The translations under genes were made by a program, and so were the position numbers. This document shows, piece by piece, positions 10 through 19,922 of a DNA stretch of 64,000 nt (position 1 is its first letter; each line of letters starts with the position of its first letter). Below the pieces are notes generated by a model that searched no databases, was not told the DNA's origin, and saw only the letters and a list, made by a program, of their open reading frames with translations. This DNA is from Arthrobacter gallicola (GTDB lineage: Bacteria > Actinomycetota > Actinomycetes > Actinomycetales > Micrococcaceae), in assembly GCF_014836775.1 (NCBI RefSeq), contig NZ_JACSQD010000002.1, forward strand, positions 242,674-306,673. The letters run 5' to 3'.

Positions 10-1119
10 ATGAGCCAACACCAAGCCGGCCGGGGAATCCTGGCCCTGGAGGTCGACGGCGAGGGGACTCACCCTGCCGCATGGCGGGTTTCCGGCCGGG
101 CACCCGGCGGGGTACTGGCGGCCGCCCGCACGCTGGAGGCGGTCCAGGCCGCCGAATCCGCGGGGTTTCACGCCGTCACCTTCGAGGACAGCCGGCTCCT
201 CCGGGAGCAGGGACCGGCCCGGCTCGACGCCGTGCAGCGGGCTGCCTTCGCGGCACCGCGGACCCGTTCCGTTGCCTTGGTTCCGGTGCTCGACGCCGTG
301 TACACCGAACCGTTTCATGTAGCCACGCAGCTTGCCAGCCTGGACCATATTTCCGCCGGACGGGCCGGCTGGATCGTCTCCGCAGCCGGAACAGCTGAAG
401 AAGGTGCCGCGGTGGGACGGGCACCGCTCACCGGGGATGCGCTGGCGCAGGAGGCGGCGGACGCGGTGGAAACCAGCCGCCTGCTGTGGGATTCCTGGGA
501 AGACGGCGCGGTCATCCGGGACGTTGCCGCCGGACGCTACCTGGACGCCGGGAAACTGCACTATGCCAACTTCCGCGGCCGGACCTTCTCGGTCAAGGGA
601 CCGGCCATCATCCCCCGGCCGCCGCAGGGACAGCTTCCGGTGTTCGCCCCGGCCGGGCTGCTGGCCCCGGGCACCGGTCAGGGCGCGGACGCAGCGCTGG
701 TGTCTGCTGCGGCCCCCGAGCTCCTGCTCAACAGCGTTGCCGCACACGCAGCTGCGGGGAGCGTCATCGCCGAGCTGGAGGTCGTGCTCGATTCCCGCGG
801 CCGGAGCGCCGCGGACCGGCTCGCCGAACTGGACGGCTGGGAACCGGGCTCAGACGCCGTTCCGCAGCGGGCCCGGCTGGCCGGTTCCGCCGCGGAGCTG
901 GCCGACTATCTGGCCCAGCTGCTCGGCACAGCCGCCGGGGTGCGGCTGTTCCCGGCGGTGCTGGACACGGATCTGGAGGAGCTGGGCCAGCTGGTGCTGC
1001 CCCGGCTGCGGGCCTGGGGACTCCTGGCGCAAACAGCACCAGAGCGCACCTTCCGGGATCTGCTGGGCCTGCCCCGGCCCGCCAACCGGTTCGCGGCCGC
1101 CGGCCGCGGGCACGCCTGA
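10..1119 (+). CDS. LLM-class flavin-dependent oxidoreductase
   Basis: This 369-aa protein belongs to the bacterial-luciferase-like monooxygenase superfamily: TIM-barrel enzymes that use reduced FMN and O2 to oxidise small molecules, often cutting C-S or C-N bonds. The family signature SAGRAGWIV follows a TQLASLDHI strand at about residues 105-125, and an insertion-type segment (LHYANFRGRTFSVKGP) is followed by PRPPQGQLPVF, typical of the NtaA/SnaA branch. The ATG is only nine bases into the window, so its promoter and partners further left are not visible. The next monooxygenase starts 18 bp downstream on the same strand, so the two are probably co-transcribed. The substrate cannot be deduced. 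Confidence 0.85.
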   Translation: MSQHQAGRGILALEVDGEGTHPAAWRVSGRAPGGVLAAARTLEAVQAAESAGFHAVTFEDSRLLREQGPARLDAVQRAAFAAPRTRSVALVPVLDAVYTEPFHVATQLASLDHISAGRAGWIVSAAGTAEEGAAVGRAPLTGDALAQEAADAVETSRLLWDSWEDGAVIRDVAAGRYLDAGKLHYANFRGRTFSVKGPAIIPRPPQGQLPVFAPAGLLAPGTGQGADAALVSAAAPELLLNSVAAHAAAGSVIAELEVVLDSRGRSAADRLAELDGWEPGSDAVPQRARLAGSAAELADYLAQLLGTAAGVRLFPAVLDTDLEELGQLVLPRLRAWGLLAQTAPERTFRDLLGLPRPANRFAAAGRGHA

Positions 1120-1137
1120 GACCAAAGGAGCATCAGC

Positions 1138-2541
1138 ATGACAAACACCACTCCTCCGGCATCCGGCCCGGCCGGCACCGGGCAGCTGCAGTTCGGCATT
1201 TTCTTCCAGGGCGTGAACTCCGGAACCATCTGGAAGCTGCCCGAATCCGGATCCCAGACCGACTTCCAGTCCTTCCGCCGCCTGGCGCAGACCGCCGAGC
1301 GGGGCCTCTTCGCCGCCTTTTTCCTCGGTGAGGGGCTGCGGCTGCGCGAGCACCTGGGCCGTCCGCACGAACTTGACGTGGCCGGACGCCCGGACGCGCA
1401 GACCATGCTGGCCGCTTTAGCCTCGGTCACCAGCCGCATTGGACTGGTGGCCACGCAGAACACCACGTACAACGACCCCGCGGATCTGGCGCACCGGCTG
1501 TCCTCCCTGGATCTGCTCTCCGGCGGTCGCGCCGCGTGGAACGTTGTGACTACGGACAACGCCTGGACCGGGGAGAACTTCCGCCGCGGTGGCTATCTGG
1601 ACCACGCGGACCGCTACGTCCATGCCGAGGCTTTTGTGCAGACGGCCAGGGCCATCTGGGACGCCTGGGAACCCGGCGCCGTCGCCCCGGGGCCGGGAGC
1701 CGAACGGTGGCTGGCGGACGGGGCGGTGCGCCGCGTACACCGCGAAGGGCAGCACTATTCGGTGAACTACGCTCCCCGGCTGCCGCGCAGCCCGCAGCAT
1801 CACCCGGTGCTGTTCCAGGCCGGCGACTCCCCTGCCGGACGGGATTTCGCTGCGCGGCAGGCGGACGTGATCTTCTCCGCGCATCCGCAGTTCGACGCAG
1901 CCGTGGCGTTCCGCGCCGATATTACCGAGCGCACCCTCCGCGCGGGCCGGCCCGCGGACGCGGTGAAGATCATGCCCGCCAGCGAATTCATCCTGGCCCC
2001 CACGGACGCGGAGGCAGCGGAAAAGAAGGCGTGGGTCCGCGAACTCCAGATCGGCCCGCAGCAGGCTCTCGCCTATCTGGAACAGTTTTGGGGCCGGCGG
2101 CTGGACGGTTGGGATCCGGACGGTCCGCTGCCTGACATCGCTCCCGCGGTCGAGGAAACCTCGGAAACCCGCGGCAGCGGATTCCACGGGGCCAAGGCGG
2201 CGCAGCTTACCGCGCAGTGGCGGCAGGAGGCGGCCGAGAAGGGGCAGAGCATCCTGGCCTTCGTCCGGGCCAAGGCCGGGCGGGCGGACGCCTCCTTCGT
2301 TGGCTCCTACTCCGAGGTCGCCGACAGGCTCGCCGGATACGCCCGTGCCGGCGCGGTGGATGGGTTCAATATTTCCCCTTGGCTTATCCCCTCCGGCCTG
2401 GACGACGTCGTCAACCACCTGGTCCCCGAACTTCAGGAGCGGGGCGTCTATCCCACGCAGTACCGGGGCACTACGCTGCGCGAAAACCTGGGCCTCGCGG
2501 TCCCGGAGCGCACGGCAGCCGGGGAACCTGCCGTCCGCTGA
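1138..2541 (+). CDS. NtaA/SnaA/DszA-family FMN-dependent monooxygenase
   Basis: This 467-aa protein looks like the large oxygenase component of a two-component flavin system (nitrilotriacetate, dibenzothiophene-sulfone and methyl-sulfide monooxygenases are family examples). Visible hallmarks are the start FGIFFQGVNSGTIWK, a YNDPADLAHRLSSLD strand, LSGGRAAWNVVTTDN and PRSPQHHPVLFQAGDSPAG, all in family order; the length is normal (about 440-470 aa). An AAGGAG site lies ahead of the ATG. It follows another LLM oxygenase and precedes a solute-binding lipoprotein, suggesting uptake plus oxidative cleavage of one nutrient. The flavin reductase it needs may be the gene at 5603. The substrate is unknown. 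Confidence 0.88.
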   Translation: MTNTTPPASGPAGTGQLQFGIFFQGVNSGTIWKLPESGSQTDFQSFRRLAQTAERGLFAAFFLGEGLRLREHLGRPHELDVAGRPDAQTMLAALASVTSRIGLVATQNTTYNDPADLAHRLSSLDLLSGGRAAWNVVTTDNAWTGENFRRGGYLDHADRYVHAEAFVQTARAIWDAWEPGAVAPGPGAERWLADGAVRRVHREGQHYSVNYAPRLPRSPQHHPVLFQAGDSPAGRDFAARQADVIFSAHPQFDAAVAFRADITERTLRAGRPADAVKIMPASEFILAPTDAEAAEKKAWVRELQIGPQQALAYLEQFWGRRLDGWDPDGPLPDIAPAVEETSETRGSGFHGAKAAQLTAQWRQEAAEKGQSILAFVRAKAGRADASFVGSYSEVADRLAGYARAGAVDGFNISPWLIPSGLDDVVNHLVPELQERGVYPTQYRGTTLRENLGLAVPERTAAGEPAVR

Positions 2542-8475: not shown

Positions 8476-8726
8476 AGCAGCGTCCTGTTCAACGGGGTCG
8501 TCCCCGTATCAAAGGAAATGAGCGGGTCGTCCCGCCCATCAAGTTCGCGGCTGCTGTCCAGTGGTACCGGTACCCGGTGTGGCGGCCGGACAGCGTGTGG
8601 CTGCTCCCAATTATAGCCAACGTCCGGCTGCCAGCTCGGGGCTCCCGCCGCAAGGGCCTTGACCCGGGCGGCTGCGCCGTTAGATTTGGGGCCATACACC
8701 CGCCGTCCACCTGCATGGGAGCAGCC

Positions 8727-15285: not shown

Positions 15286-15669
15286 GTGCTGATTGCCGCC
15301 GCCGTATTCACGCTGGTTGCCGCCGCCGTCCACTTTTACTTCTTTGTGCTGGAATCCCTGCGCTGGACTGCTCCCGAAACCATGGACGCCTATGGAATCA
15401 CGTCGCCGCAGGACGCCGAGGCCACGCAGCCGCTGGCCTACACCCAGGGTTTCTACAGTTTGTTCCTCGGCGTGGGTGCCGTTCTGGGTGTGCTGCTGCT
15501 CGGCGTGAGCAATCCGGTTGCGGGGCTGACTCTGATGAGCTTTTCCACCGCCTGCATGGCCCTTGCGTCAGTGGTGCTGCTGGCCGGGAAATGGCCCCTG
15601 GGGCGGATCGCCCTGATCCGGGGGATACCGGCGCTGCTCGCACTGCTGCTGGCACTGCTGGGTTCCTAG
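15286..15669 (+). CDS. DUF1304 family membrane protein
   Basis: A 127-aa protein with four predicted membrane helices. The DUF1304 features are the first helix with VHFYFFVLESLRW, then the hydrophilic AYTQGFYSLFLGVGAV stretch (the conserved NQGFYN-like region) and a closing helix LIRGIPALLALLLAL. GTG 15286 with GAGGGGG ahead fits the family length; an earlier TTG at 15247 would add 13 residues unlike the family. Function is unknown. Its TAG overlaps the stop codon of the convergent alkA gene by four bases. Confidence 0.8.
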   Translation: MLIAAAVFTLVAAAVHFYFFVLESLRWTAPETMDAYGITSPQDAEATQPLAYTQGFYSLFLGVGAVLGVLLLGVSNPVAGLTLMSFSTACMALASVVLLAGKWPLGRIALIRGIPALLALLLALLGS

Positions 15670-16607
15670 GCACCGGCCTGCGCGGGCAGCGGAGCGCCGT
15701 CGTACGCGTGGTCCGTCCAGAGGTGGAAGAGGGCGTAGGCCCGCCAGGGCCGCCATGGTTCAGCCAGGCCTTCCGCTTCCCGCGCCGTGGCGACGCCGAG
15801 GGCGCGCCGCAGAATCAGGTCGCCGGGAACAAACGCATCCCGGTCCCCTCCGGCACGGACCGCCAGGTAGTCGGCGGTCCAGGGTCCGATGCCCGGCAGC
15901 GCCAGCAGCGCGGCCCGCTGACCGCCGTTCCCCACGTCAAGACCGCCGGCGACAGCGACGGAGAGTGTGTGGATGGTCCGGGACCGCGCCCCGGTGATCC
16001 GCAGGGCGGTCTGCAGCTCCCCGGCGGGAACCTCCGCCAAGGCTGATGCCGAGGGAAACAGCCGGAAGCCCCCGGGACCAGGGGTGCCGTACTCGGAAAC
16101 CAACCGGGCGCCGAAGGTCCTGGCAGCGGCGAGGGAGACCTGCTGGCCCAGCACGGTCAGCACGGCGGTTTCGAACGGGTTCACGGCTCCGGGAATCCGC
16201 AGGCCGGGGTGCCTGGCTACCAGCGGGGCCAGGCGCGGAAAGCCCGCCAGGAAGCCGTCCACGGCGGGGGTGTCTGCGTCCAGGTCCAGCCAGCGCCGGA
16301 CCAGCGCGAGGCGCGCGGCATCACCGGCCGGGGTGCCGCCGTCGAACCGCACGGTCAGTCCGTCCGCGGAACTGAACTCCACGCGTGCCAGCACCGGACC
16401 GTCCGGGGACGGCAGCAGCCGGGTCAGGGCGGCACCTGCCGCGGTGCCTTCCACGGATTCAAGTCCCGGAACTGCGTGTGCGGCCAAGCTGCGGACCAGG
16501 GGTTGCCAGGGGAACGGCCCGCCGGCTTCCAGCAGGTGGGTCCGGCCGGCCGTCTGAACTGCCTGCGTCGCCGGGATTCCGGGGACGCAGACTTCGGGGT
16601 TGCTCAT
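15666..16607 (-). CDS. alkA: AlkA-type DNA-3-methyladenine glycosylase II
   Basis: A 313-aa HhH-GPD base-excision glycosylase that removes alkylated purines. After an AlkA-like N-terminal domain (PWQPLVRSLAAHAVPGLE) comes AVNPFETAVLTVLGQQVSLA at about 141-160. The helix-hairpin-helix LPGIGPWTA lies at 237-245 and the catalytic aspartate is Asp263 in FVPGDLILRRAL. Its ATG overlaps the alkB stop codon in ATGA (16604-16607), so it is translationally coupled as the last gene of the sigma-ogt-alkB-alkA operon. Its stop overlaps the convergent DUF1304 gene by four bases. Confidence 0.92.
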   Translation of the reverse strand: MSNPEVCVPGIPATQAVQTAGRTHLLEAGGPFPWQPLVRSLAAHAVPGLESVEGTAAGAALTRLLPSPDGPVLARVEFSSADGLTVRFDGGTPAGDAARLALVRRWLDLDADTPAVDGFLAGFPRLAPLVARHPGLRIPGAVNPFETAVLTVLGQQVSLAAARTFGARLVSEYGTPGPGGFRLFPSASALAEVPAGELQTALRITGARSRTIHTLSVAVAGGLDVGNGGQRAALLALPGIGPWTADYLAVRAGGDRDAFVPGDLILRRALGVATAREAEGLAEPWRPWRAYALFHLWTDHAYDGAPLPAQAGA

Positions 16608-17290
16608 TGAAGTCCGGTCATGCGGAGGGTGATGTTGATCCGCCCGCGGGGCAGACCGGTTTCCGGGTCCGCTGTGCCGGGCAACGTCTTGGGCACGCCG
16701 TGATAGGCGAAGCGTGACGGGCCGCCGAACACGAACAGGTCCCCGGAGACCAGCTCCAGATCGGTGTAGGGCTTGGTGCGGGTCTGTGTATTCCCGAAAC
16801 GGAATATACAGCTGTCACCGATGCTGAGGGAGACCACCGGGGCACTGGACTTCTCATCCTTGTCCTGATGCATGCCCATGTGGGCACCGTCGGCGTAGTA
16901 GTTGATCAGGGCCGTGTCCGGGGTGTAGTCCTCCAGGTCAAAGATCTCCGGAGCGTAGCCAGCCTGCCCCTCGGCGAAGTAGGCGGTGCGGAGGGCGTCG
17001 CGTCCCAGGTGGATGAGCCAGTCCGGAACCTCGGCCACCCGGCCGCCGCCGGCGTCGTCCGCTGTGCGGGTGTATTTGTACGGCTGCCAGTGCCAGCCCA
17101 GGCAGACCGTCTGGACCGACATTTTGTGTCCGCCGGGGAGGACGGCGGAGCGCATCGGCACCGGGCCGATCGCCCAGGCCCGGCAGGCCTCCACGATGCT
17201 GCGCTGCTGGGCGGTATCCAGCCAGCCAGGAACATGGACGGCACCGGCGGACGGAGCGGAACGTTCCCGCGGGAAAAGCTGCCCGGTCAT
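16604..17290 (-). CDS. alkB: AlkB-type alpha-ketoglutarate-dependent dealkylating dioxygenase
   Basis: A 228-aa Fe(II)/2-oxoglutarate dioxygenase that oxidatively removes methyl groups from 1-methyladenine and 3-methylcytosine. The iron ligands are visible as His141-x-Asp143 (MGMHQDKDE) and His197 (AYHG). The 2-oxoglutarate and substrate arginines form R217-x5-R223 in GRINITLRMTG. The ATG overlaps the ogt stop codon (ATGA, 17287-17290); the open frame further upstream to 17926 is the antisense of nothing and simply overlaps ogt. It is the third gene of the coupled repair operon. Confidence 0.94.
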   Translation of the reverse strand: MTGQLFPRERSAPSAGAVHVPGWLDTAQQRSIVEACRAWAIGPVPMRSAVLPGGHKMSVQTVCLGWHWQPYKYTRTADDAGGGRVAEVPDWLIHLGRDALRTAYFAEGQAGYAPEIFDLEDYTPDTALINYYADGAHMGMHQDKDEKSSAPVVSLSIGDSCIFRFGNTQTRTKPYTDLELVSGDLFVFGGPSRFAYHGVPKTLPGTADPETGLPRGRINITLRMTGLQ

Positions 17291-17910
17291 GCGGCGGCTT
17301 CCATCTGCAGCAGGGTGCGCTTGGCGTCGCTGCCGCCGAGGTAATTGCCGATTTTGCCGTCCGAGCGCACCACCCGGTGGCAGGGAACCACCACGGGCAG
17401 TGGATTCCGGGCGCAGGCCGTACCGGCGGCGCGGACCGCGCCGGGGTTCCCGGCCAGGGCGGCGAGGGCCGCGTAGCTGGCGGTGGCGCCGTAGCCGATG
17501 TCGGAGAGGTGCTCGACGACGGTGCGGCGGAAGCCGGTGGCCAGGCGGAAATCCAGCGGCAGGTCGAACCGCTGCCGGGTGCCCGCGAAATACTCTTTCA
17601 GTTGGCGGACCGGCGCGGCCAGGCGCTCTGGAGCGGCAAGGATGCGTGGACTGATCCGCGCGGCGAGCTGTTCCAGGACGGCGTCGTGGCCTTCGATGCC
17701 GAACCCCACCCGGACCAGTCCGGCAGGGGTGGCGGCGAGCAGCAGGTCCCCAACGGGTGAGTCGATGACGGTGTAGGCGACGTCGAGCAGGTCTCGCTGT
17801 TCGGCCCCGGCCGCGAGCCGGGCCTGCAGCCGGGCCAGGGCTTGCTCTTCTCCGGCGGCCAGGGCAGAGCTCAGTCCGGCGTCCGGCACGGTATCCACAG
17901 GCAGGCTCAT
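17287..17910 (-). CDS. ogt: Methylated-DNA-protein-cysteine methyltransferase (Ogt/MGMT)
   Basis: A 207-aa suicide methyltransferase repairing O6-methylguanine. The acceptor Cys177 lies in the invariant VVPCHRVV motif, followed by the asparagine-hinge and GNYLGGSDAKRTLL segment. The N-terminal ribonuclease-like domain is VIDSPVGDLLLAATPAGLVRVGF. The first 40 residues form an extra charged helix (EEQALARLQARLAAGAEQRD) not needed for catalysis. The ATG overlaps the sigma-factor stop (ATGA, 17907-17910) and the stop overlaps the alkB start, so production is tied to both neighbours. Confidence 0.93.
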   Translation of the reverse strand: MSLPVDTVPDAGLSSALAAGEEQALARLQARLAAGAEQRDLLDVAYTVIDSPVGDLLLAATPAGLVRVGFGIEGHDAVLEQLAARISPRILAAPERLAAPVRQLKEYFAGTRQRFDLPLDFRLATGFRRTVVEHLSDIGYGATASYAALAALAGNPGAVRAAGTACARNPLPVVVPCHRVVRSDGKIGNYLGGSDAKRTLLQMEAAA

Positions 17911-18401
17911 CGGAGGTCCTCTCCATCCATGGTTCTCAGTTTCTTCATACCGTCCGCGGCGGAGCGGCGGACGGCTGCCTCGGTACTGCCCAGCAGCACA
18001 GCCACCTCGGCGAAAGGCAGTCCGGCAAGGTGGTGGTAGGCCAGCGCCTCCCGCTGGCGCTGCGGCAGGGTCCGCAGGGCGGCCCACAGTCCGTCATGGT
18101 CGCCGGGACCGGGTGTCTCTGTGCTCCTGCCGCCGTCGCTCCCAGGCTCGGGGAGTTCAGGCACCAGCACCGGGCGGCGGGCGGCGGAACGGTGGACATC
18201 GATGGCCTTTCGCTTGGCAATCGTGACCAGCCAGGCCTGGACGTTGGCTCCAGCCTGCAGTTCCGGGTAGGCGCGCAGGGCAGCGAGGAACGTCTCGGAC
18301 CAGGCGTCCTCGGCGTCGTCGGGTCCCAGGACAGCGCGGCACACGCGCAGCACCACGGCTCCGTGTTCCCTGACGATCGCTTCGAACGGTTTCACTTCCA
18401 C
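17907..18401 (-). CDS. ECF-type RNA polymerase sigma factor
   Basis: A 164-aa sigma-70-related factor with only regions 2 and 4. Region 2 is AIVREHGAVVLRVCRAVLGP, DDAEDAWSETFLAALRAY and NVQAWLVTIAKRKAIDVHR (about residues 8-75). Region 4 is ALRTLPQRQREALAYHHLAG followed by PFAEVAVLLGSTEAAVRRS, the helix-turn-helix. No anti-sigma gene lies nearby; instead three alkylation-repair genes follow through ATGA overlaps. The GTG at 18401 has no clear Shine-Dalgarno site and a TACAGT sits just before it, so the transcript may be leaderless or nearly so. It is probably the activator of its own repair operon, by inference from linkage. Confidence 0.88.
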   Translation of the reverse strand: MEVKPFEAIVREHGAVVLRVCRAVLGPDDAEDAWSETFLAALRAYPELQAGANVQAWLVTIAKRKAIDVHRSAARRPVLVPELPEPGSDGGRSTETPGPGDHDGLWAALRTLPQRQREALAYHHLAGLPFAEVAVLLGSTEAAVRRSAADGMKKLRTMDGEDLR

Positions 18402-18443
18402 ATACTGTAGACGCGCGGCAGCAGGGTTTTGTGAGGTTCCGGA

Positions 18444-19922
18444 TTAGCCCAGGCCCGCGTGCGGCAGTGGTGACCAGCCGAAGCCGGCGCGCGGTCCTGT
18501 GGCGAACCCTCCGGCGGCATCGGGCCCTGCAGGCTCCTGACCCTCCGCCTCAGGACCCGCGCCCAGCAGGCTGCGGGTCAGGGCTTCGCGTTGTCCGGAG
18601 AGGCTTTCGGCTGCACCGAGCAGCTGTGCGTCGCCGGGGTCCTCCCCCGCTTCCGCCGCCGCCAGGACAGCGCGGCGCACCAGTTCCCGGGCGAACGACG
18701 CCGTTGCTCCCTCTGTTTGTTCCGCCACCTGTGCCAGGGCGGCCGCGGAGAACGTGCCGGCCGGTGCATACAGTTCCAGCAATCGGGCGCGGTCGGCGGC
18801 ATCCGGCAGGGGAATTTCGACGGCGAGGTCCACCCGGCCGGGCCGCTGCGCCAGTGCCCGTTCCAGGACGTCCACCCGGTTAGTGGTCATGATGAACGAG
18901 ACATCCGCATCGGCGTCGAGTCCGTCCAAGGCATCAAGGACTTCGAACAGCAGCGGCTGAGGCCCGTGGCCCATGCTCCGGTCTTCAGCAATCAGGTCAA
19001 TGTCTTCCAGCACCACCAGGGACGGAGCCATGGCCCGGGCAAGTTTCGCCGCGTGGGAGACAGCGCCGAGGGAACCGCCGGAGAGGAGCACCGCCGTCGT
19101 GCCGGGAGTTTCACTGAGCAGGTGTCTGACGGTATGGGTCTTCCCGGTGCCGGGCGGACCGTAGAGCAGGACACCGCGCTTGAGGTGCTGGCCGGCTGCC
19201 TTCAACTGGCTGCGGTGCCCGGCGATGCCGATGACGTGGCTGCGGACCCGCTCCAGCACGCCGTCGGGCAGGATCACTTCGCTGATGGGAAGTAAGGGCC
19301 TGGAGAGGAACGTGACGCCGGCGCCGTTTTGGCCATAGGGGTCAAACCCTAGCGACACCACCTGGCCCCGCAGGACGCTGTTGGTCCGCAGGTCTTCCTG
19401 GACGGCAGCCAGCACGGCGGCTGCCGCGGAACGGTCCGCTGCCATCACCGCGATGCTCGCGTCCGGACTGCCGGTCTGCGGATCCCCGTTGCGCTGCATT
19501 ACGGCAACGGGAATCCCGCGGTGGCGGAAGAGCCGGATACCCAGGGCCAGGGCTTCGCGGCTCTCCCCTGGACCGATGGGGACGTTCACATAGTCCGGCT
19601 GGCCCACCGGAACGTTGCTATAACCGTCCTCCTGCACTACATCGGAGAGGGTCAGGTGCCGGCGCTGCTGGCCGCCGCCCATGCCAATCAGCACATTGTC
19701 CGGGTCCGCCGCAGCCAACCGTTCCAGCGCGATGTCCAGGTCCGCGAACCGGTGGAACGGAATTGTCTCGGCCACGATCGGCACATCCTGGGCCGGGCAG
19801 CCCAAATGGCGGCTGATGGCATCCCGCAGCCGCTCCCGGTCCGGGGACTGGAAGCGCTGCTGCTGGGCGAGGTCGATTGCGGCGCTGAAGCTGGCCAGGA
19901 AGTCCGCGAGGTTCTTCTCCAT
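18444..19922 (-). CDS. AAA-family ATPase with unassigned N-terminal domain
   Basis: A 492-aa protein with one AAA module at about 215-420. Walker A is GPPGTGKT (255-262), Walker B is VVLEDID (303-309), sensor 1 is the Asn of MTTNR (348) and the arginine fingers lie in AQRPGRVD (359-364). The arrangement resembles the CDC48/FtsH/proteasome-ATPase group, but there is no protease domain. The first 200 residues match nothing I know. The C-terminal 40 residues are Gly/Pro-rich and likely disordered. It starts 14 bp after the acyl-CoA dehydrogenase stop and ends 42 bp before the sigma factor, so it may be transcribed with either. Its role is unknown; remodelling of a protein complex is the general expectation. 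Confidence 0.85.
   Translation of the reverse strand: MEKNLADFLASFSAAIDLAQQQRFQSPDRERLRDAISRHLGCPAQDVPIVAETIPFHRFADLDIALERLAAADPDNVLIGMGGGQQRRHLTLSDVVQEDGYSNVPVGQPDYVNVPIGPGESREALALGIRLFRHRGIPVAVMQRNGDPQTGSPDASIAVMAADRSAAAAVLAAVQEDLRTNSVLRGQVVSLGFDPYGQNGAGVTFLSRPLLPISEVILPDGVLERVRSHVIGIAGHRSQLKAAGQHLKRGVLLYGPPGTGKTHTVRHLLSETPGTTAVLLSGGSLGAVSHAAKLARAMAPSLVVLEDIDLIAEDRSMGHGPQPLLFEVLDALDGLDADADVSFIMTTNRVDVLERALAQRPGRVDLAVEIPLPDAADRARLLELYAPAGTFSAAALAQVAEQTEGATASFARELVRRAVLAAAEAGEDPGDAQLLGAAESLSGQREALTRSLLGAGPEAEGQEPAGPDAAGGFATGPRAGFGWSPLPHAGLG

Follow-up and report, generated by a model that had tools for sequence, protein, structure and literature searches.

A sigma factor and Ogt pair that may serve an Ada-independent response to DNA alkylation in Arthrobacter and other actinobacteria

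Among the groups of extracytoplasmic function (ECF) sigma factors without an anti-sigma factor, ECF122 is entered in a 2022 review with an 'unknown mechanism'; the passage on this group names conserved neighbours that include 6-O-methylguanine DNA methyltransferases, possibly regulatory, and takes its example from Cellulomonas (PMC8999054). An ECF sigma factor with a conserved neighbour of this kind, the O6-methylguanine-DNA methyltransferase gene ogt, heads an operon in a 64,000-nucleotide stretch of Arthrobacter gallicola DNA (contig NZ_JACSQD010000002.1, positions 242,674 to 306,673; the whole stretch is called the window here). The operon runs on the minus strand in the order sigma, ogt, alkB, alkA (18401-15666). 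The sigma factor most likely belongs to ECF122, as judged by gene neighbourhood rather than by an ECF122 profile. The sigma-ogt pair is also carried by Oerskovia (L113, L117, L141, L168), which we take to be of the same family as Cellulomonas. The pairing of sigma factor and methyltransferase is already catalogued; new here are the promoter, the regulon, a helix of Ogt and the relation to Ada. A literature search found no title or abstract describing a sigma-Ogt mechanism.

Three other described systems resemble the operon in part. It contains the repair set of the Escherichia coli Ada response, namely an O6-methylguanine methyltransferase, AlkB and AlkA, and like that response (PMC4437013) it is probably autoregulated. 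It differs in its control: no Ada zinc-binding (methyl-phosphotriester) domain reaches the cut-off in the whole genome (best score 15.4 bits against 23), and an ECF-type sigma factor with its own promoter type is found instead. For Cada2 of Caulobacter, the likely switch is a cysteine of the PF01035 methyltransferase domain that becomes methylated (PMC10957082). The same kind of cysteine is the likely damage switch here, but Cada2 binds DNA by its own N-terminal domain (PMC10957082) whereas Ogt would act through the sigma factor; by Pfam, no fused DNA-binding domain of the Cada2 type is present in the 207-residue Ogt, just Methyltransf_1N and DNA_binding_1. ECF41 sigma factors share the -10 element CGTC and a small regulon limited to neighbouring genes, but recognize TGTCACA-n16-CGTC and bear a large C-terminal regulatory extension (PMC3426412). 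The sigma factor of the window has no Pfam domain past region 4, and its promoter is CTCAC-N17-CGTCT rather than of the TGTCACA type.

As far as comparative sequence evidence goes, the sigma factor and Ogt together seem to activate the operon that encodes them as well as further genes of alkylation repair. That they constitute an Ada-independent adaptive response to DNA alkylation, with Ogt as the cognate regulator of the ECF sigma factor, is a proposition for which the chances seem evenly balanced. The evidence is of several kinds: constancy of the pair, a shared promoter, a helix of Ogt that follows the sigma factor, and the rarity of Ada beside it.

The pair was followed in a family sample of 149 genomes, 76 of which have the sigma gene, and in 243 sigma loci gathered by family, phylum and class searches plus a scan of named genomes; one place may appear under two sources, and 228 sigma-ogt pairs are distinct in sequence. 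All 76 family genomes have an ogt gene (scoring 187 bits or more) directly after sigma on the same strand, and ogt is the next gene downstream in 240 of the 243 loci. Of the exceptions, L100 and L184 are cut off by the end of their contig. The remaining one, L262, scores 99 bits against 108.7 for the weakest linked sigma, and no ogt is found in the 407 bases left before its contig ends. Its frame (404-1273, reverse strand) continues into a cysteine-rich HxxxCxxC tail, suggestive of a fused zinc domain of an anti-sigma-like kind, so that it looks like a different, fused ECF. The exact 4-nucleotide overlap of sigma and ogt is kept in 200 of 240 loci, which argues that the arrangement is more than chance. 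No natural sigma-Ogt fusion was found among 141 loci. In one further locus (L303, genome G809) the coding sequence of sigma is divided between two frames, with an intact helix-bearing Ogt behind it, either a decaying sigma or a sequencing error.

The remaining genes of the operon are far less constant. The 80 named loci include Arthrobacter, Rhodococcus, Mycobacterium, Nocardia, Streptomyces, Saccharopolyspora, Streptosporangium and others. In them ogt directly follows sigma in 79, a second ogt (ogt2) precedes it in 43, and alkB, alkA and tag lie within 4 kb in 31, 20 and 14, respectively. Thus, the conserved unit is sigma plus ogt, and the four-gene order, which the first-pass annotation had described as a tightly coupled set and proposed to look for in other actinobacteria, is one local version of it. 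The ATGA overlaps that it had placed at all three junctions were confirmed (Table 1).

A common promoter accompanies the pair. In the first 30 loci, CTCAC-N17-CGTCT occurs near the sigma start, or ahead of ogt2 where ogt2 leads; the exact form is absent from L005, L012 and L014. CTCAC-N17-CGTC lies within 160 nucleotides upstream of sigma in 111 of 240 loci, against a total of 7 for all other spacings from 12 to 22, and no copy is found in a similar-sized window inside the sigma gene. A site near sigma or 160-800 nucleotides upstream is present in 72 of the 80 named loci but in only 4 of 426 background windows. Of the 43 loci with ogt2, 35 have a far site (160-800 nucleotides), and the 37 without ogt2 have none; thus, the promoter moves with the head of the operon. 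Most sigma genes from deeper lineages of the phylum lack the exact form ahead of them.

A stricter pattern yielded 87 sites across the 149 family genomes. Of these, 49 are on the strand of sigma and no more than 1.3 kb upstream of it, although one (in G071, at a distance of 1072 nucleotides) does not mark an operon head. The remaining 38 are in other places, and all of them were checked. Five precede genes of alkylation repair confirmed by Pfam, namely tag in L050 and an ogt-type gene in each of L059, L070, L071 and L072, and these make up 5 of the 26 off-operon sites in sigma-positive genomes and none of the 12 in sigma-negative ones. For the other 33, no tested gene begins in the 250 nucleotides downstream. 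Among them is a site in the sigma-negative L078, 82 nucleotides before a uracil-DNA-glycosylase-like open reading frame (ORF), which lies inside an open frame and was taken as chance. The L070 site (1214-1242) stands ahead of a second gene for a sigma-type Ogt, unlinked to sigma, whose product lacks the helix. In the genome of the window, the looser pattern has 5 exact matches against 7 for a control pattern; the four matches other than that at sigma have no sigma, ogt, ogt2, alkA, alkB or tag within 250 nucleotides downstream and were rejected as a further regulon, and the other ogt locus of this genome (L001) has no CTCAC-N17-CGTCT site. Sites at sigma, at operon heads and at five unlinked ogt or tag genes support an autoregulated alkylation-repair regulon. 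The sigma factor would read the CTCAC-N17-CGTCT promoters of its own operon and of other alkylation-repair genes, and these promoters would be induced by alkylation.

The sigma factor itself is a standard ECF protein. Its matches to Sigma70_r2 (49.9 bits, cut-off 24) and Sigma70_r4_2 (43.8 bits, cut-off 25.7) account for regions 2 and 4 only, with no region 1 or 3, and the sigma70-ECF model TIGR02937 scores 63.2 bits (cut-off 42.9). It is not of the SigE family, since TIGR02983 reaches 77.5 bits, below the curated cut-off of 141.55. No anti-sigma domain is found by Pfam in seven proteins of the window, those of the operon included; unlinked anti-sigma factors elsewhere in the genome were not searched for. 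Cys21 of the sigma factor was considered as a sensor and set aside, being kept in 115 of 132 aligned relatives and so not invariant. The first-pass annotation had suggested, noting that Ada and an anti-sigma factor are absent and that the system departs from the classic Ada response, that the sigma factor may itself sense or relay alkylation damage. The absence of Ada and the departure from its response stand, as does, at the level of sequence, the tie of an ECF-like sigma factor to alkylation-repair promoters without Ada; that of an anti-sigma factor holds as far as the Pfam search just described. The sensing role finds no support: a protein of two standard ECF domains is a poorer candidate than its constant partner Ogt.

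Ogt has both methyltransferase domains, and its catalytic Cys177 is kept in all 132 aligned relatives. Ahead of the catalytic core, the sigma-linked Ogts carry about 40 residues that include a helix in a modelled homologue, and Ala36 is kept in 132 of 132 sequences of a first alignment and 222 of 228 of a larger one. A pattern of hydrophobic residues at 28 and 32 with Ala36 is found in 207 of 228 sigma-linked Ogts against 2 of 18 unlinked ones. Two family genomes have a close Ogt but no sigma: in L223 an Ogt with a proline in its helix continues from a sigma-like start (MRKPFE), and in L224 the helix is not recognisable; from their sequences both look like sigma losses. Extra Ogt copies away from sigma (L070, L225) are without the helix. 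The constant pairing and a helix that follows sigma make Ogt, a suicide enzyme, the likely partner and sensor of the sigma factor. Residue coupling between the two proteins gave high-ranking inter-protein pairs (best rank 6), but at the low depth of about 167 effective sequences over 356 columns, and without a null, it is not used as evidence. Besides its Ogts, the genome of the window encodes a third PF01035 protein (L003, 1489-1980), with a partial DNA-binding domain match and PWWRV where Ogts have PCHRV, presumably an alkyltransferase-like (ATL) protein.

The distribution of Ada agrees with replacement, with exceptions. In the family sample, Ada occurs in 49 genomes, sigma without Ada in 67 and neither in 33. 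The two occur together in 9 against 25 expected (Fisher p 2.7e-8 without correction for relatedness); when one genome is drawn per genus, the mean co-occurrence is 1.6 against 5.2 expected, with a median one-sided p of about 0.01. The sigma-Ogt pair may thus stand in for the classic Ada alarm.

The pair of L164, joined in frame by reading through its one TGA, was modelled as a single chain with AlphaFold2 (alignment A8, 28 rows), giving a predicted local distance difference test score (pLDDT) of 85.3 and a predicted template-modelling score (pTM) of 0.73. The modelled sigma superposes on the sigmas of RpoE-NepR, SigW-RsiW and CnrH-CnrY at 4.2-4.5 Å over 138-147 residues, and on polymerase-bound sigmas at 19-26 Å. 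A control, ogt2-sigma of L160 (alignment A10, 13 rows), had a pLDDT of 69.6 and a pTM of 0.46. Just one of its domains could be matched to anti-sigma-bound RpoE and SigW, and the fits to SigE-RseA and to polymerase-bound sigmas were 13.4 Å and 15-22 Å, respectively. In the L164 model the sigma factor thus has a shape like that of several anti-sigma-bound sigmas, a contrast that is suggestive only because the alignments differ in depth and interface errors are absent from the output.

In the mechanism proposed, the sigma factor would direct RNA polymerase to CTCAC-N17-CGTCT promoters, that of its own operon and, in relatives, those of further alkylation-repair genes. Unreacted Ogt, through its N-terminal helix and its body, would keep the sigma factor inactive. 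Upon methylation of its catalytic cysteine, Ogt would be reshaped or degraded and the sigma factor released; the freed sigma would then induce the operon, and with it fresh Ogt, until unreacted Ogt again exceeds sigma. That a suicide repair enzyme also serves an ECF sigma as anti-sigma factor in this manner is put forward tentatively, at somewhat less than an even chance. The constancy of Ogt, the tracking of sigma by the helix, the promoter, the rarity of Ada beside sigma, the model and the Cada2 precedent all count for the Ada-independent response as a whole.

A number of observations weigh on the other side. Tested by presence in genera, the exclusion of Ada and sigma is not significant (p 0.15), and the two do coexist in nine family genomes. 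The helix pattern is missed by 21 of the 228 linked Ogts. Conversely, L306 has ogt2 and ogt with no sigma between them and keeps the helix; L305, another counter-example, also keeps it, with Arg31 and Ala36 replaced. Ogt has no anti-sigma match in Pfam and so does not qualify as a four-helix class I anti-sigma factor, and its extension, with one main helix in the modelled homologue, is too short for such a domain. The modelled sigma fits BldN of BldN-RsbN poorly (12.2 Å), and the contrast of model and control is confounded by alignment depth. In the genome of the window, the sole convincing promoter site is the one at sigma. Finally, the linkage of sigma and ogt would fit a co-activator or a dosage relationship too.

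In the dosage case, the sigma factor drives the regulon and the overlap merely fixes the dosage of Ogt, control being left to positive feedback, an outside transcription input or an unlinked factor. The autoregulatory promoter and the lack of a known anti-sigma domain in Ogt agree with this. Against it, ogt is the one constant gene beside the variable alkB, alkA and tag, and the non-catalytic helix of Ogt follows sigma; we regard this case as unlikely. Methylated Ogt could instead be a positive co-factor that binds the sigma factor or polymerase, much as methylated Ada does. Linkage, helix and promoter would be explained equally, and methylation activates rather than releases Ada and Cada2 (PMC10957082). 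This arrangement is nevertheless judged a little less likely still, given the closed shape of the modelled sigma, weak evidence in itself, and the position of ogt. Anti-sigma factor genes usually sit downstream of the sigma gene and overlap it, as ogt does. An ordinary constitutive repair operon beside a sigma gene of unrelated purpose, which would suit the single operon carrying the site in this genome, is very improbable, since the position of the promoter follows that of the operon head, and unlinked tag and ogt genes of five sigma-positive genomes carry it too.

The features of the operon are collected in Table 1. The starts of Ogt and AlkB were set at the ATGA overlaps because these agree with the homologues; the longest ORFs extend further upstream. 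The surrounding genome comprises 3.65 Mb in 14 contigs, and its closest named relatives are Arthrobacter. Upstream, a gene for an AAA ATPase (18444-19922, minus strand) ends 42 bases ahead of the sigma start, a gap filled by the sigma promoter. The central AAA domain of its product is related to proteasome-activating and Cdc48-type ATPases by the order of NCBIfam scores, all below cut-off. Neither this gene nor the downstream DUF1304 gene was accepted as part of the system, since in the named loci they are confined to some or all of the eight nearest Arthrobacter. Elsewhere in the window, a Guanidine-II (mini-ykkC) riboswitch (8494-8538, minus strand; 43.8 bits, with a gathering score of 32) closely precedes an ORF on the minus strand (8475-7312) with a match to the sodium/calcium exchanger family.

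Table 1. Coordinates of the sigma-ogt-alkB-alkA operon and its elements in the window
Feature	Position	Strand	Remarks
Predicted sigma-dependent promoter, CTCAC-N17-CGTCTAC	18407-18435	-	five bases 5' of the GTG start of sigma; transcript predicted to begin near 18402, almost leaderless
Promoter elements	18435-18431 (-35-like); 18413-18409 (-10-like)	-	
ECF-type sigma factor, regions 2 and 4 only	17907-18401	-	GTG start, 164 aa
sigma/ogt ATGA overlap	17907-17910	-	exact 4 nt kept in 200/240 loci
Ogt, O6-methylguanine-DNA methyltransferase with N-terminal extension	17287-17910	-	207 aa; Methyltransf_1N and DNA_binding_1
Ogt residues 20-42, conserved helix of sigma-linked Ogts	17785-17853	-	Ala36 at 17805-17803
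Ogt catalytic Cys177	17382-17380	-	
ogt/alkB ATGA overlap	17287-17290	-	
AlkB-type 2-oxoglutarate/iron dioxygenase	16604-17290	-	228 aa; Pfam 2OG-FeII_Oxy_2
alkB/alkA ATGA overlap	16604-16607	-	
AlkA-type 3-methyladenine DNA glycosylase	15666-16607	-	313 aa; Pfam AlkA_N and HhH-GPD

The matter bears on the alkylation response of 67 of the 149 family genomes, those that have the sigma factor and lack Ada. The comparative evidence provides a promoter, a regulon, a candidate sensor and a short, removable structural element. If Ogt does hold the sigma factor, each methyl group repaired would use up one inhibitor, and release of sigma would be proportional to the damage. The pair would then be a phylum-wide stoichiometric alkylation sensor replacing Ada, and it would explain how one ECF group is controlled without an anti-sigma factor.

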